The notes below the pieces were generated by a model. That model saw only the letters and a list, made by a program, of their open reading frames with translations, did no database searches and had not been told where the DNA came from. 23,400 nucleotides of DNA from the IMG/VR virus record IMGVR_UViG_3300022698_000145, positions 1 through 23,400 of that record. One strand, given 5' to 3'. Both the position numbers and the translations under genes were made by a program. This DNA is from a virus. Of the stretch, positions 18,138 through 23,400 are shown piece after piece (the first letter of the stretch is position 1; each line of letters begins with the position of its first letter).

Positions 18138-18851
18138 ATGTCTGTTGATATTTATAATTTCATATACAAAACAATCTCACCTAGCGGAAGATATTATATC
18201 GGTCGCCACACCACAAAAAACTTACAAGACGGGTATCTCGGATCTGGTAAGTGGGTCAATTCATACAAAAACAAATCCAACCTCAAAAGGGTTATTCTAG
18301 AATTTGCTGAAGATTTTGAAACTCTATTGGAGTTGGAAGAGAATCACATCAATAATTCTATTGACGACCCGTTGAATATGAACTACAATAATAAGCCTGT
18401 GGGGTTTGGTTCGGGTAAACATAACCCAAACACAGACCCAAAAAGAAAGAAGTTTCTCACAGAAAGAATGATGGGTGTTAAAAACCCAATGTATGGTAAA
18501 ACCCATAACGAAGAAACTAAGAGAAAAATAAGCGAGAGCACTTCTGGGGAAAATAACCCATTCTACGGCAAAAGTCACACTATCGAAACCAGAAATAAAA
18601 TTAAAGAAACATCTACCGGAAGAAAATTGACCGAAGAAACCAAGAAAAAGCTTTCTGAAATTAAGAAAGGTAAAGAAACTTGGAATAAAGGGTTAGAGGG
18701 ATGTTTCGAAATGCCAGAGTCAGGTAAACAGGCTATATCAAAATCATGGAAAGATAGACCAAAACTAGAGTGTGAAAACTGTGGTGAATCATTTTACCCG
18801 AATACATATAAAAGATGGCACGGCGATAATTGTAAAAATGCGAAACTTTGA
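18138..18851 (+). CDS. GIY-YIG homing endonuclease
   Basis: The 237-residue protein has a GIY-YIG nuclease domain (about 1-90): IYNFIYKT in place of GIY, GRYYIGRH (17-24) with the catalytic Arg 23, GYLGSGKW, and EENHINNS with the candidate catalytic Glu near 67-68. NUMOD3-like DNA-binding repeats follow (NPMYGKTHNEETKRKISES and NPFYGKSHTIETRNKIKET). The C-terminus has a possible zinc finger CENCGESFY...HGDNC. It should cut DNA in related phages lacking the element and copy itself there. It is free-standing, not in an intron. The codons are richer in AAA/AAT than in neighbours, which fits transfer. It overlaps the next gene by 14 bases. Confidence 0.92.
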   Translation: MSVDIYNFIYKTISPSGRYYIGRHTTKNLQDGYLGSGKWVNSYKNKSNLKRVILEFAEDFETLLELEENHINNSIDDPLNMNYNNKPVGFGSGKHNPNTDPKRKKFLTERMMGVKNPMYGKTHNEETKRKISESTSGENNPFYGKSHTIETRNKIKETSTGRKLTEETKKKLSEIKKGKETWNKGLEGCFEMPESGKQAISKSWKDRPKLECENCGESFYPNTYKRWHGDNCKNAKL

Positions 18852-19509: not shown

Positions 19510-19845
19510 ATGAACATCGAAACAAAGTATCTGGCATACATAACCGCTTTACTGATTTGCTTTACAGTGGTTGACACTTATGCAGAAGAAAGGCAAGTTG
19601 TTCAATTGCCAGTACTTTGTGGACCAATTGATGATATCGTATCCCCGATCAAAGCTGACGGGCATGATATAATCTTTATGGGATCAACCCCCTCTGTTGA
19701 GGGGAGTGATGTTTATGCGACGGTTTGGGGTGATCAAGAGAACACCTCTTGGGTATTCACCTTAACCAATATGAAGCTTGGTCAGTCTTGCATCGTATCA
19801 TCAGGCGATGGTGAATACAAGCAATATTACGGAAGCGGTATCTAG
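19510..19845 (+). CDS. Small secreted or periplasmic hypothetical protein
   Basis: The N-terminus (MNIETKYLAYITALLICFTVVDTYAEE) shows a short polar start, a hydrophobic core and a probable signal peptidase site after TYA. The mature part, about 85 residues, is beta-rich and has two cysteines (LCGPIDD and QSCIVSS) that could form a disulfide in the periplasm. GAGG precedes the ATG by seven bases. It ends tail-to-tail with the minus-strand operon, overlapping its last gene by four bases. The function is unknown. It may belong functionally with the secreted proteins on the other strand. Confidence 0.75.
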   Translation: MNIETKYLAYITALLICFTVVDTYAEERQVVQLPVLCGPIDDIVSPIKADGHDIIFMGSTPSVEGSDVYATVWGDQENTSWVFTLTNMKLGQSCIVSSGDGEYKQYYGSGI

Positions 19846-20384
19846 TTAGCTAGTGGGTTGTCCAAAGCTCTCTGCAACTTAGAGTTCAACCTATCTTCTA
19901 GTTCTTCCATATCTCGTTCAATCGAGGTATTCAACCTTTCACGAGCTGAGTCATAATCATTCTGTAGAGAATCCCTCTTGTTCTCAAAACGCTCTTCAGC
20001 ATTCTGAATCATCTGGCGAACGTCAGCTTCAGTTTCTTTGACGTCATCTTCTACTTGATCAACTATGTCTTCCACTCGAACTAAGTCGTCTCTTAGATCG
20101 TTTTTGATATCACGAACTCGTGCTTCGGTCTCAATAGAAGCGTCACGGATAACATTAACTTCAACGATTACCGCATCCATCTTACCATCCATGACACTCA
20201 ACTGCTCTTGAAAACCAGATAGATCAGGGGCAACGTATTCTTGAATCTGCGCCTTCATGTTTCGATAGTCATTGTAAAATTCAAACGCACCCCACGCACC
20301 ACCACCCAAAGTCGAAAGGGCAGTAACCAAAGCGAATGCCTTGCCACCGGTAAACTTTACTCCAGCGAATTCTACTTCTGCCAT
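19842..20384 (-). CDS. Inner-membrane-anchored long coiled-coil protein
   Basis: The 180-residue protein has a short cytoplasmic start (MAEVEFAGVKFTGGK), one membrane helix (about 16-36: AFALVTALSTLGGGAWGAFEF) and then about 130 residues of strongly heptad-like, acidic coiled coil. The layout resembles inner-membrane spanins or scaffold proteins. I recall similar AEVEF-GGxKFxGGK proteins in marine T4-like phages, without a function. AGGAG precedes the ATG by six bases. It is the last gene of the minus-strand unit and overlaps the stop of the convergent gene by four bases. The spanin-like role is inference. Confidence 0.8.
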   Translation of the reverse strand: MAEVEFAGVKFTGGKAFALVTALSTLGGGAWGAFEFYNDYRNMKAQIQEYVAPDLSGFQEQLSVMDGKMDAVIVEVNVIRDASIETEARVRDIKNDLRDDLVRVEDIVDQVEDDVKETEADVRQMIQNAEERFENKRDSLQNDYDSARERLNTSIERDMEELEDRLNSKLQRALDNPLAN

Positions 20385-20393
20385 TTTATTCTC

Positions 20394-20825
20394 CTAGTTC
20401 TCGAACCCAGAACCGCCAACACTATTCAATCTTTTGAGTGTCTCTAATTCTTCTTGTAGTCTTAATACTTCAATTCTTTTCTTTCTTAATTCAAGCTCGT
20501 AAAGAGAGTTGCAATTTATCCGCTCTTCAGGTGCGTCCAATGGGATAGTGATCCTAGCGTAAACACCAACATCTCTTGTGCTATCCCCGTTACTGTTGCC
20601 AAAGGGACTACTGTAGTTGTCTATAACTCCAGTCACACCAAGCTCTAAGTTAGTCGCTCCACCAATAGCGTTCTTGCAATCCAGATCACCCGATCGAATG
20701 CTGTCCTGCCCATATGCGGTTGGGGGCGAAGGCAGTGCTAAGTTAATAGAACTGGCATCCGCCAGTGCACTCAGCGAAACCACCGAAATCAAACCAACCA
20801 AAAAATAGCGCATATTGAAACTCAC
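20394..20825 (-). CDS. Secreted conserved phage protein with C-terminal coiled coil
   Basis: The GTG start at 20825 forms a GTGA overlap with the preceding stop. An ATG four codons in (20813) gives MRYFLVGLISVVSLSALADA, a clean signal peptide. The mature part has SINLALPSPPTAYGQDSIR, SGDLDCKNAIGGATNLELGV and DVGVYARITIPLDAPEERIN, then CNSLYELELRKKRIEVLRLQ entering a helix. This pattern recurs, in my recollection, in proteins of marine phages and some marine bacteria. Two cysteines suggest a disulfide. The C-terminal helix could pair with the coiled coil of the next gene's product. The function is unknown. Confidence 0.8.
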   Translation of the reverse strand: MSFNMRYFLVGLISVVSLSALADASSINLALPSPPTAYGQDSIRSGDLDCKNAIGGATNLELGVTGVIDNYSSPFGNSNGDSTRDVGVYARITIPLDAPEERINCNSLYELELRKKRIEVLRLQEELETLKRLNSVGGSGFEN

Positions 20826-21199
20826 TTAAACTTAGAACAAATTCTAGAAGAAACTGCAGCTCTTGTAGAATCTCCCTTTCTCAACTTTGAACGTGAGCAG
20901 ACATATGTTGCTCGACTCACATCCTTTTCCCGGACAAAGACTTCAAACGAAACCTTGCTCAGATATTCCAACTGCACTATCCGGTACGTTGACGCAAACG
21001 GGATTGGATTGAAGTCTTTATCGAAAACTGCAATCTCATAAAACTCAACGTCTGCCCTTTTGTTGAACATCCGCATCGTTGTGCTGTATAGCCCATCCAT
21101 ATAAGACAGCTCCAGCTTCGGATAGGTAGGTGTCATTTCGTGGGCATTAGAAGTACCCACGAAAAGCACCATCAATAAGGGCATGATAAAAGTTTTCAT
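20822..21199 (-). CDS. Secreted pilus-chaperone-like protein
   Basis: The signal peptide is MKTFIMPLLMVLFVGTSNA. The mature 106 residues read as one immunoglobulin-like domain: YPKLELSYMDG, MRMFNKRADVEFYEIAVFDKDF (given here as MRMFNKRADV and EFYEIAVFDKDF) and TYVCSRSKLRKGDSTRAAVS, then SRICSKF. The order of strands and the R-C-S-K end recall the N-terminal domain of fimbrial (PapD-type) chaperones, but at half their length. It begins one base after the pilin-like gene's stop with no clear SD, so translation is coupled. If the analogy holds, it would fold or hold the pilin-like protein in the periplasm. Confidence 0.75.
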   Translation of the reverse strand: MKTFIMPLLMVLFVGTSNAHEMTPTYPKLELSYMDGLYSTTMRMFNKRADVEFYEIAVFDKDFNPIPFASTYRIVQLEYLSKVSFEVFVREKDVSRATYVCSRSKLRKGDSTRAAVSSRICSKFK

Positions 21200-21200
21200 A

Positions 21201-21722
21201 TTATTTCGCGATGCACTCAGCTTCAGCTAGTGCGGTATAGTTACCGCCCGGAAAAGCTTTGTTTCCTCCCATAGTTGCTTCTGAGTGGATAGCAAACCAA
21301 GTACTGCCCGTTGCAGTCAGCGTGTAGCGATCTGTATCACCAACTTCTAGCTTGTTGGCTTCATACGAACCCATGCCTTCAGCATCACTAACCGCCTGAA
21401 CTGACACTTCACCAGTGAAGGTTGCTTGATCAGGTAAGTTGGGTGAGCTACTGAACTCAGTCGGGGGAGTGATTTCTGCAAAGTATGCATCTGCCAATGT
21501 CACATCAATACGAACAACAGCTTGGTCACCACCGTCGGCTTGCTGTGTAGACAGTGTGTATGAGTTGGGGTTTCCGTAAGTACCTGCGGTGCTTGTCTGG
21601 ATGACGCAACGAGATTCTACGGTGCCATTGATTGGAACGTTTCCGGCTTTTGCCAACAACACACCACCTGCCAGTAGAGATGCCATAGCAATACGTGAAT
21701 ATGTTTTAGTCTTATCGAACAC
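21201..21722 (-). CDS. Secreted pilin-like (spore coat U / fimbrial-type) protein
   Basis: GTG 21722 with AGGAGA six bases before is the start; the frame extends further only into the intergenic and previous gene. The 173-residue product has a signal peptide (MASLLAGGVLLAKA, cut before GNVP). The mature beta-rich part begins NVPINGTVESRCVIQTSTAG and ends FPGGNYTALAEAECIAK, with a cysteine near each end. That layout is typical of fimbrial and spore-coat-U-like subunits. It sits directly before the chaperone-like gene, as pilin and chaperone genes do. No usher is seen in the window. It may form a surface polymer or a virion decoration. Confidence 0.75.
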   Translation of the reverse strand: MFDKTKTYSRIAMASLLAGGVLLAKAGNVPINGTVESRCVIQTSTAGTYGNPNSYTLSTQQADGGDQAVVRIDVTLADAYFAEITPPTEFSSSPNLPDQATFTGEVSVQAVSDAEGMGSYEANKLEVGDTDRYTLTATGSTWFAIHSEATMGGNKAFPGGNYTALAEAECIAK

Positions 21723-21759
21723 AATTGTTCTCCTATGAATTATTTGAAAATAACCATCA

Positions 21760-22656
21760 CTATTGGTATTGCATGTCAATCATTTTTTCATGCAATATTT
21801 GTTGAGCTAAACCAGTCCGAAGACCACGTCTATTTTCTGGCAATTTTTTATCCACAAGAACAACGGAATCACTATAAGATCCGCCATCAATCGTCACTAC
21901 ACTATATGTTCTCTCCATCACTGCGTTTGTTGCCTGATTCATTAAGTCGATTCTCGCGGCTTCCGCAAAAAGCGCATTATCGTTAATTGCCGATAGTGCC
22001 AACTCCAAACGGATTGCTCTACGATTTTCTTCTTTCTCTTCTTTCTCTTTCAGATCTTCTTCTGATAACCCTTCATCTTCGACCGACTCAACCTCAGTCT
22101 CTCGATCAAGATCCACGTTCTCATCTGAAGTGACGTCATACAGAGTTGACACGTCCACTTCAGGGACTACAGGTTCCGGTTGCTTGTAGTTAGGGCAACT
22201 CGGATCAAACTGAGGGTCATAGCACGGGTCTACCTTATACGTGTAAACAACATTGGCATCTGTAACGGTGCCCGTACCCTCAACCTCTATTGAACCATCA
22301 CCCCAAGCCTGCCTCGGAATGTTGGGTACAACAGGAACAACTTTACGAAGCTCGATACCACCTTGCTGTCCAGACCAATCATCCGTTGATCTGAAGATGT
22401 AACCTTCGCCAAAAGCATTTTCGTTTTGGACATGAACTTTCATATCGTCTTCGGTTATCTTGATCGGGGTGTAGCGATAGATGACATTACTCACATCCAG
22501 TCCGGGCACGTTAGGCGGAAACACATTATCCATGCTCCACGTGTGTCCACTTGATGCCGCGTTATCGGTCTGTCCGTAGTATGGGGTTATGCTCTCAGAA
22601 TATGAGTAGCATGCCCAAGATACCAATACCAAAGCGAGTTGCTGTCTCTTTAACAT
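21760..22656 (-). CDS. Secreted conserved phage protein, 298 residues
   Basis: The signal peptide is MLKRQQLALVLVSWACYSYS. The N-terminal domain (about 20-165) has TPYYGQTDNAASSGHTWSMD, VSNVIYRYTPIKITEDDMKV, HVQNENAFGEGYIFR and RQAWGDGSIEVEGTGTVTDA. A Cys-Pro-rich link (VDPCYDPQFDPSCPNY) leads to an acidic low-complexity stretch (about 185-212) and a helical C-terminal domain. I recall the WGDGSIEVEG family in marine phages and bacteria without function. The start overlaps the previous gene by 62 bases. AAGG precedes the ATG. Confidence 0.82.
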   Translation of the reverse strand: MLKRQQLALVLVSWACYSYSESITPYYGQTDNAASSGHTWSMDNVFPPNVPGLDVSNVIYRYTPIKITEDDMKVHVQNENAFGEGYIFRSTDDWSGQQGGIELRKVVPVVPNIPRQAWGDGSIEVEGTGTVTDANVVYTYKVDPCYDPQFDPSCPNYKQPEPVVPEVDVSTLYDVTSDENVDLDRETEVESVEDEGLSEEDLKEKEEKEENRRAIRLELALSAINDNALFAEAARIDLMNQATNAVMERTYSVVTIDGGSYSDSVVLVDKKLPENRRGLRTGLAQQILHEKMIDMQYQ

Positions 22657-23134
22657 CTACCTTATCCGAATCTTCTAATTCTTGACGCGTCGTCTCGACG
22701 TGAGTTTCCCAACCCAAACGAGCAGCGTCACCAATTTGACCGTTATATGGACAAGGAGTTCCTGCGTGCATCATAGCATCGAAAACCTTTTGGTCTTGAC
22801 ACATAACTGATACTGCGGCAACTTTCATGCCCATATCAAAAAGCGTTTTAGCATTCTTCAGACGGATACAGTTTTCTTCAGTGAACGTAGTTCCTGCCGA
22901 GATACCCAAAATCTGGGTCTGCACTGCACCAGCGACACCGATAGTACAAAGGTCGCTATTATTACCTGAGCTAAACTGTGGAGAGATAGCAGATGGCGGG
23001 GGTTGCTTGATGGTGGTGGTCATATTACCGTTTGTGGTAATTGTACTGTCTGTTGTAGATTCAGTAACAATGGGGTCTACTGCCCAAGCCAAAGAAGAGC
23101 ATAATAGTAATGACAGTGCAGCAATATACCTCAT
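22595..23134 (-). CDS. Secreted protein with C-terminal membrane segment, first gene of the late minus-strand unit
   Basis: MRYIAALSLLLCSSLAWAVDP is a clear signal peptide. ATG 23134, with GGA upstream, is preferred over ATG 23143 because a transcript from the late box at 23170 would leave almost no leader before the latter. The mature part has a Thr/Asn-rich stretch, PPPSAISPQFSSGNNSDLCT, GVAGAVQTQILGISAGTTF, then VSVMCQDQKVFDAMMHAGTP and CP. It ends in a short hydrophobic helix (FGIGILGMLLIF). Four cysteines suggest disulfides. The PPPSAISP...GAVQTQ...AGTPCP family recurs in marine phages in my recollection. The function is unknown. Confidence 0.82.
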   Translation of the reverse strand: MRYIAALSLLLCSSLAWAVDPIVTESTTDSTITTNGNMTTTIKQPPPSAISPQFSSGNNSDLCTIGVAGAVQTQILGISAGTTFTEENCIRLKNAKTLFDMGMKVAAVSVMCQDQKVFDAMMHAGTPCPYNGQIGDAARLGWETHVETTRQELEDSDKVDVKETATRFGIGILGMLLIF

Positions 23135-23162
23135 CAGTTCCATCTCGCGTATTATAAAAAAC

Positions 23163-23170
23163 TATTTATA
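23163..23170 (-). promoter_or_regulatory. T4-type late promoter box for the secreted-protein unit
   Basis: An exact TATAAATA on the minus strand lies about 28 bases before the first gene's ATG at 23134. No good -35 precedes it, as expected for T4 late promoters. It places the whole six-gene unit in the late programme. Confidence 0.6.
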
Positions 23171-23230: not shown

Positions 23231-23400
23231 ATGAGAATCGCATTAGCTGCAGCTTTATTGTTTGGTGTTCCACAGAGTTTCGCCGAGACCACATACACCG
23301 AGGAAGAAATTAATTGGTTGACTAAGAACGTATACTTTGAAGCAAGAAATCAGGGTATCGCAGGGCAACTAGCTGTAGCCATGGTTACGTTAAATCGGGT
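23231..23400 (+). CDS. SleB-type cell wall hydrolase, 3' end outside the window
   Basis: The first 56 codons are present. MRIALAAALLFGVPQSFAET is a signal peptide. The start of the SleB/Hydrolase_2 domain follows: EEINWLTKNVYFEARNQGIA, then GQLAVAMVTLNRV. The Glu in YFEAR is the expected catalytic residue of these peptidoglycan lytic transglycosylases. GGAGAGAG precedes the ATG by a few bases. A Sec-exported hydrolase would reach peptidoglycan without a holin. It stands divergent to the secreted late unit, suggesting a role in lysis or envelope remodelling. Confidence 0.85.
   Translation, partial: MRIALAAALLFGVPQSFAETTYTEEEINWLTKNVYFEARNQGIAGQLAVAMVTLNR

Follow-up and report, generated by a model that had tools for sequence, protein, structure and literature searches.

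We describe a late, exported unit of six genes, g1 to g6, on the minus strand (23134 down to 19842) of the IMG/VR virus record IMGVR_UViG_3300022698_000145. The analysed window is the 23.4-kb stretch of 23,400 nucleotides, which is probably a fragment and has several T4-like features, namely PhoH, a deoxynucleoside monophosphate kinase, a phrog_298 exonuclease and late-promoter octamers (TATAAATA). The unit is a composite of two separately occurring sub-modules, a point missed when the window was first read from its sequence, and one of its proteins, g4, is predicted to be a single PapD-like domain. We give an even chance to the reading that g3 and g4 form a chaperone/pilin-like pair that works without an usher and that, together with anchoring proteins, assembles a fibre or coat within the host envelope late in infection. 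The computed basis of this reading is the operon, its late promoter, the signal peptides, the strict co-conservation of the genes, the predicted fold of g4 and a search in which no usher was found.

The sequence-only reading of the window had assigned signal peptides to five of the genes, and their relatives bear this out. According to a simple heuristic of our own, used in place of SignalP, signal peptides occur in 60/67 relatives of g1, 55/56 of g2, 54/54 of g3, 55/56 of g4 and 54/55 of g5, or 90-100% of the relatives, compared with 17% of other genes of at least 90 amino acids. The last protein, described as a membrane-anchored coiled coil, does have an N-terminal membrane segment followed by a coiled coil, and all of its relatives (52/52) share an NPL/NPM motif at the C-terminus. 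When IMG/VR was scanned, 466 stretches were found to encode relatives of g1, and at least 540 encode relatives of g5 according to a scan with the g5 alignment. The loci seeded with g1 contain relatives of g1 to g6 in constant order and strand. In an independent set of 82 loci seeded with g5, 69 carry the complete ordered g1-g6, and the genes missing from the other 13 lie past the end of the stretch. Every non-truncated locus examined has the order g1-g2-g3-g4-g5-(insertions)-g6, neither order nor membership varies in about 140 loci, and insertions are tolerated between g5 and g6 only. Thus, co-conservation across marine phages, proposed earlier as a check, is found. The statement that these families occur together in marine phages without a known function is also supported. 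They correspond to no curated Pfam or NCBIfam family; searches with g1-g5, as single proteins and as alignments, found no significant relative among Pfam, NCBIfam and PDB sequences. The original observation is confirmed, and it was understated. Because hundreds of marine phage contigs keep the unit intact, it must matter to infection.

These data bear on the proposal that g1-g6 are virion proteins that merely have hydrophobic N-termini. The genes do lie beside structural genes in some phages. However, canonical signal peptides occur in nearly all relatives of five genes, tailed virions assemble in the cytoplasm, and copies exist on bacterial plasmids, and we consider this explanation extremely improbable.

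The exact octamer TATAAATA occurs within 80 bp upstream of g1 in 35/63 related loci (0.8 expected from shuffles), but in the same loci it never occurs upstream of g2-g6. This distribution supports one late transcription unit that starts at g1, at least in T4-like carriers; in carriers without the octamer, different late promoters may serve. Among 38 carrier records, most of which are fragments, 7 contain a T4 Gp23-type capsid gene. Six minus-strand genes behind one late promoter had been read correctly, as had their tight coupling: g1 and g2 overlap by 62 bases, and the later gaps are 37 (g2-g3), 1 (g3-g4), 8 (g4-g5) and 9 bases (g5-g6). The octamer and the signal peptides together support a late, Sec-exported and envelope-directed unit.

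The first sub-module comprises g1, g2 and g6. In Pelagibacter phage HTVC115P, uncultured phage MW202481 and Roseobacter phage CRP-810, relatives of g1 and g6 flank a secreted protein in the position of g2; the middle protein of HTVC115P matches g2 weakly (E=0.0045) and has the same DMQY ending. Pelagiphage Mosig shows the same order: g1 is followed by a large acidic protein that is secreted and then by a short, membrane-anchored coiled coil that ends in NPLAG and was not scored as g6. No g3-g5 were found in any of these four phages. In CRP-810, a small lipoprotein similar to the conserved C-terminal portion of g1 (E=3.4e-5) is encoded directly upstream of the full g1 (L005 5612-5872).

The second sub-module, the trio g3-g4-g5, occurs without g1, g2 and g6 in Vibrio phages pVp-1 and Ceto (T5-like), K379 and D289, where it directly follows two large probable tail-fibre genes. 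Klebsiella jumbo phages and Erwinia vequintaviruses have a more divergent version, ordered g4-g5-(167-amino-acid secreted protein), whose secreted protein may be the pilin-like counterpart. The sequence-only reading was right to place the families in marine phages but missed that the g3-g4-g5 part also occurs in bacteria. A Mesorhizobium plasmid carries the trio together with two pilin-like genes, an alphaproteobacterial contig has it amid metabolic genes, and Vibrio plasmids carry g4-g5 plus secreted neighbours. Class-wide sampling gave one further alphaproteobacterial copy in 289 genomes, the query genome's own phage-like contigs being excluded, and no copy beyond the centre genome among 185 genomes of a second class; cellular copies are therefore rare. 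Genes for EAL-domain proteins (cyclic di-GMP phosphodiesterase-type) stand beside the trio copies on the plasmids of Mesorhizobium (L183) and Vibrio nigripulchritudo (L181), and such neighbours would suit a surface structure linked to cyclic di-GMP. On a plasmid of Vibrio campbellii BoB-90, a g4-g5 pair (L182 4528-5324) adjoins a type I-E CRISPR-Cas operon, and a second, diverged copy is located elsewhere on this plasmid (L185).

The AlphaFold2 model of g4, built from a 48-sequence alignment, is a confident beta sandwich with a predicted local distance difference test (pLDDT) score of 87.5. The top eleven PDB matches in Foldseek (E 5e-5 to 5e-4) consist entirely of chaperones from chaperone-usher systems or their complexes with pilins, with SafB (5.4e-5), PapD, DraB, FaeE, Caf1M and FimC as the top names. 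Two cysteines, C101 and C121, are invariant in 18 diverse relatives, including cellular ones, and are located in the last two predicted strands, which are adjacent; in the marine phage family, a lysine or arginine stands two residues after C121. FGL chaperones have a critical F1-G1 disulfide and a conserved lysine in strand G1, K139 in Caf1M (PMC4133393). Furthermore, when viral models were searched with g4 by structure only, a 116-amino-acid protein of Klebsiella phage Eowyn ranked third, and its gene directly precedes a relative of g5 that was found by sequence alone. We consider this agreement of the structure and sequence searches to be independent support for the assignment of g4. The mature protein starts with HEMTP, and the histidine immediately after the predicted cleavage site is invariant in 48 marine relatives and also present in the Klebsiella and Erwinia relatives.

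The AlphaFold2 model of g3 has a pLDDT of 87.1, and its mature N-terminus (about residues 27-38) is of low confidence and unstructured. The top four PDB matches in Foldseek are FimF, CfaB, FimG and the pilin domain of PapG. The N-terminal extension reads V29-P-I31-N-G33-T-V35-E-S-R-C39, in which I31, G33, V35 and C39 are invariant (47 sequences). The N-terminal extensions of chaperone-usher pilins have alternating hydrophobic residues, and the P4 pocket of Pap takes glycine only (PMC3960871). A corresponding donor-strand pattern, h-x-h-x-G-x-h-x(2-5)-C, occurs in 53/54 relatives of g3 and 13/17 pilins of E. coli K-12, compared with 23/3749 other open reading frames; because it was formed after seeing both families, the enrichment is partly post hoc, and the contrast is supportive rather than a blind test.

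Besides the origin of this pattern, several observations weigh against a chaperone/pilin-like pair. The pilin matches of g3 are weak (E about 3e-3, template modelling scores 0.30-0.49), and at its C-terminus, where the invariant G160 is the 14th residue from the end, the penultimate residue is alanine and not the pilin-type tyrosine. When g3 was compared with 17 pilins of E. coli by hhalign, P was 2e-4 at first, which was due to the signal peptides; once these were trimmed, 17/150 column shuffles reached the profile-profile score of mature g3, and we therefore claim no sequence homology. The next entries in the g4 list, MSP and VAP-A, have the PapD-like fold and are not chaperones. As with its cellular relatives, g4 is without a second (C-terminal) immunoglobulin domain. 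It has no conserved strand-A1 arginine (R8 in PapD, R20 in Caf1M), no conserved arginine being found before R48 in 48 sequences, and its profile-profile comparison with E. coli chaperones does not rise above column-shuffled controls. Finally, no usher (PF00577) was found in any of 38 carrier records of up to 328 kb, and the E. coli control genome was positive.

In an alternative reading, the secreted proteins g3 and g4 have immunoglobulin-like folds but are unrelated, and their likeness to pilins and chaperones is fold convergence. Such folds are common, neither protein resembles pilins or chaperones significantly in sequence or profile, and the template modelling scores of g3 are below 0.5. 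However, two adjoining, co-conserved genes independently point to both partners of one known complex, g3 has the donor-strand pattern, and the conserved cysteine pair of g4 lies in its last two strands, the site of the FGL-chaperone disulfide. We regard convergence as rather doubtful.

The unit resembles chaperone-usher pili (type 1, P, FGL-type Caf1M/Caf1 and SafB/SafA) in that a PapD-like periplasmic protein adjoins a pilin-like subunit, that this subunit has an alternating-hydrophobic N-terminal extension, and that export is by Sec. It differs from them in having no usher, a single-domain chaperone and no recognised adhesin, in being a late unit of lytic phages with the extra partners g1, g2, g5 and g6, and in lacking similarity at the sequence level. 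By the tests made (usher, domains and sequence), the unit falls outside the chaperone-usher family, yet part of it plausibly works alike. No usher is annotated or recognised near the trio in the bacterial and Vibrio phage loci either. Since no usher was found, the structure has no known route to the surface; it may remain in the periplasm or use a host usher. In the literature, which was partially covered, no description of a phage-borne pilin/chaperone pair was found. The main text of the cryo-electron microscopy study of phiKp24 (PMC9700779) mentions neither gp141-143 nor mass spectrometry and gives no proteome evidence either way.

In the fibre or coat assembly that we favour, Sec would export g3 and g4 to the periplasm, and g4 would hold g3 by strand donation. 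The g3 subunits would be linked by insertion of the N-terminal extension (V-x-I-x-G-x-V) of one into the next. The chain could be ended or anchored by g5, through its mature N-terminal L-x-L-x-L strand and C-terminal coiled coil, and the coiled coil of g6 would anchor the structure in the inner membrane. The proteins g1, with its four conserved cysteines and hydrophobic tail, and g2 may link the structure to other envelope layers or let it reach the surface. Because no usher is encoded, g5 and g6 are the probable cap and anchor of the fibre or coat. Donor-strand exchange, fibre assembly, the anchoring roles and the biological purpose are what we infer. Made just before lysis, the structure would cover or remodel the host surface; this is its most likely purpose, whether by receptor masking, by exclusion of later phages or by reduced adsorption of progeny to debris, and a role as a lysis helper is the next most likely. 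Among the roles suggested earlier from the sequence, a surface polymer is plausible and is the best fit, given the PapD-like prediction for g4 and the pilin-like one for g3.

The exported proteins may instead act individually, without a polymer, in superinfection exclusion or receptor masking. In T5, llp sits next to its receptor-binding gene. The Vibrio phage trio, directly after large probable tail-fibre genes, occupies a possible site of receptor-linked exclusion genes, and exclusion or receptor-blocking proteins of the Llp type are likewise phage proteins exported to the envelope. However, six co-conserved proteins exceed the need of known single-protein exclusion factors, and the unit is multi-gene and strictly late, with a chaperone-like component that suggests assembly. 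We believe that individual action is quite unlikely.

A lysis accessory is a further candidate. The unit would disrupt or link the outer membrane at lysis, as an addition or alternative to spanins, with g6 resembling an i-spanin and g1-g5 acting as periplasmic or outer-membrane partners. As in the two-component Rz/Rz1 spanins, g6 has an inner-membrane anchor followed by a periplasmic coiled coil, and expression is late. A recognised lysis-type gene lies within 6.5 kb in at least 23/68 loci. SleB is beside g1 in the window, enzymes of the GH19/peptidoglycan-binding and M15 types are found in other loci, an Rz-like gene and a T4-type lysozyme lie directly upstream of g1 in L019, L055, L057 and L060, GTA_holin_3TM lies two genes after g6 in L192, and a holin and an M15 endolysin follow the Vibrio trio. 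A regular-expression search found no three-transmembrane (3TM) holins near the module; Pfam finds the L192 holin that this search missed, and the count of nearby lysis genes is therefore a lower bound. However, most loci have no recognised lysis gene nearby, and the trio occurs in bacteria without lysis genes. A spanin-like complex, one of the roles suggested at first and one that we rejected as the main explanation, is disfavoured because the complete module is accompanied by a separate Rz-like spanin gene in at least eight carriers. The six-gene module, unlike Rz/Rz1, contains no lipoprotein partner (no lipobox at the N-termini of g1-g5). Rz-like matches were obtained in 18/30 carrier records, but this profile also matches cellular controls. 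For pVp-1, a carrier of g3-g4-g5, i-spanin and o-spanin families are both listed by Kongari et al. (PMC6139136). We consider a lysis accessory unlikely.

Both neighbours named in the sequence-only reading, a divergent Sec-exported SleB hydrolase and a convergent secreted protein, were found (Table 1), and relatives of the latter face g6 in the same convergent way in at least four contigs. In 22/68 loci (for example, L009 7124-7840), a gene for a class 3 lipase (PF01764) is found no more than 6.5 kb from the module, often just after g5 or g6, and is usually followed by a gene for a small membrane/coiled-coil protein (c8). A DNA/RNA non-specific endonuclease (PF01223, 1.9e-50) with a signal peptide is encoded beside the module in five loci (L033 5131-5895 minus, L009 8649-9449) and is possibly an exported nuclease against other DNA. 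A small membrane protein that has an EF-hand-like motif at its N-terminus (cluster c6) is encoded near the module in 24 loci (L187 149-466, L192 2351-2683) and in L192 lies between g6 and the 3TM holin. Elsewhere in the window, a homing-endonuclease-like gene (18138-18851) with three NUMOD3 motifs (PF07460, 8.7e-26) overlaps the downstream PD-(D/E)XK exonuclease gene at its start, when that gene is taken in its longest reading.

Table 1. The six-gene unit, its promoter and adjacent genes, in positions of the window
Feature	Position	Strand	Remarks
g1, Sec-exported, four conserved Cys, hydrophobic C-terminal tail	22595-23134 (alternative start 23143)	minus	phrog_20531 match 6.5e-15, function unknown; most widespread of the six
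g2, Sec-exported 298-amino-acid protein with beta-like N-terminal part, acidic linker and C-terminus ...HEKMxDMQY	21760-22656	minus	
g3, Sec-exported, candidate pilin-like subunit with donor-strand-like N-terminal extension	21201-21722	minus	GTG start after AGGAGA
g4, Sec-exported, predicted single-domain PapD-like (pilus-chaperone-like) protein, 125 amino acids	20822-21199	minus	Predicted structure
g5, Sec-exported, with an L-x-L-x-L strand at the N-terminus, a pair of conserved Cys and a coiled coil at the C-terminus	20394-20813	minus	
g6, N-terminal membrane anchor, then periplasmic coiled coil ending in NPL	19842-20384	minus	
T4-type late promoter TATAAATA	23163-23170	minus	Exact octamer, 20-29 bp upstream of g1
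SleB-type cell-wall hydrolase, Sec-exported, divergent	23231-23400	plus	Cut off by window end; fragment clusters with Hydrolase_2 protein
Convergent secreted 111-amino-acid protein of unknown kind	19510-19845	plus	Overlaps g6 by 4 bases

On a wider scale, we tentatively propose, as a possibility that falls clearly short of an even chance, that g3, g4 and the coiled-coil protein g5 represent an undescribed usher-less donor-strand system of bacteria, that several unrelated lytic phage lineages acquired it, and that in marine phages it was fused with g1-g2-g6 for a late envelope fibre or coat. If g3 and g4 are a chaperone/pilin-like pair, lytic phages build donor-strand-linked envelope structures in cells that are about to burst, and they do so without an usher. 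The simpler versions in Vibrio and Klebsiella phages, together with expression in E. coli K-12, make this reading directly testable. If true, it would be new both for phage biology and for pilus assembly.

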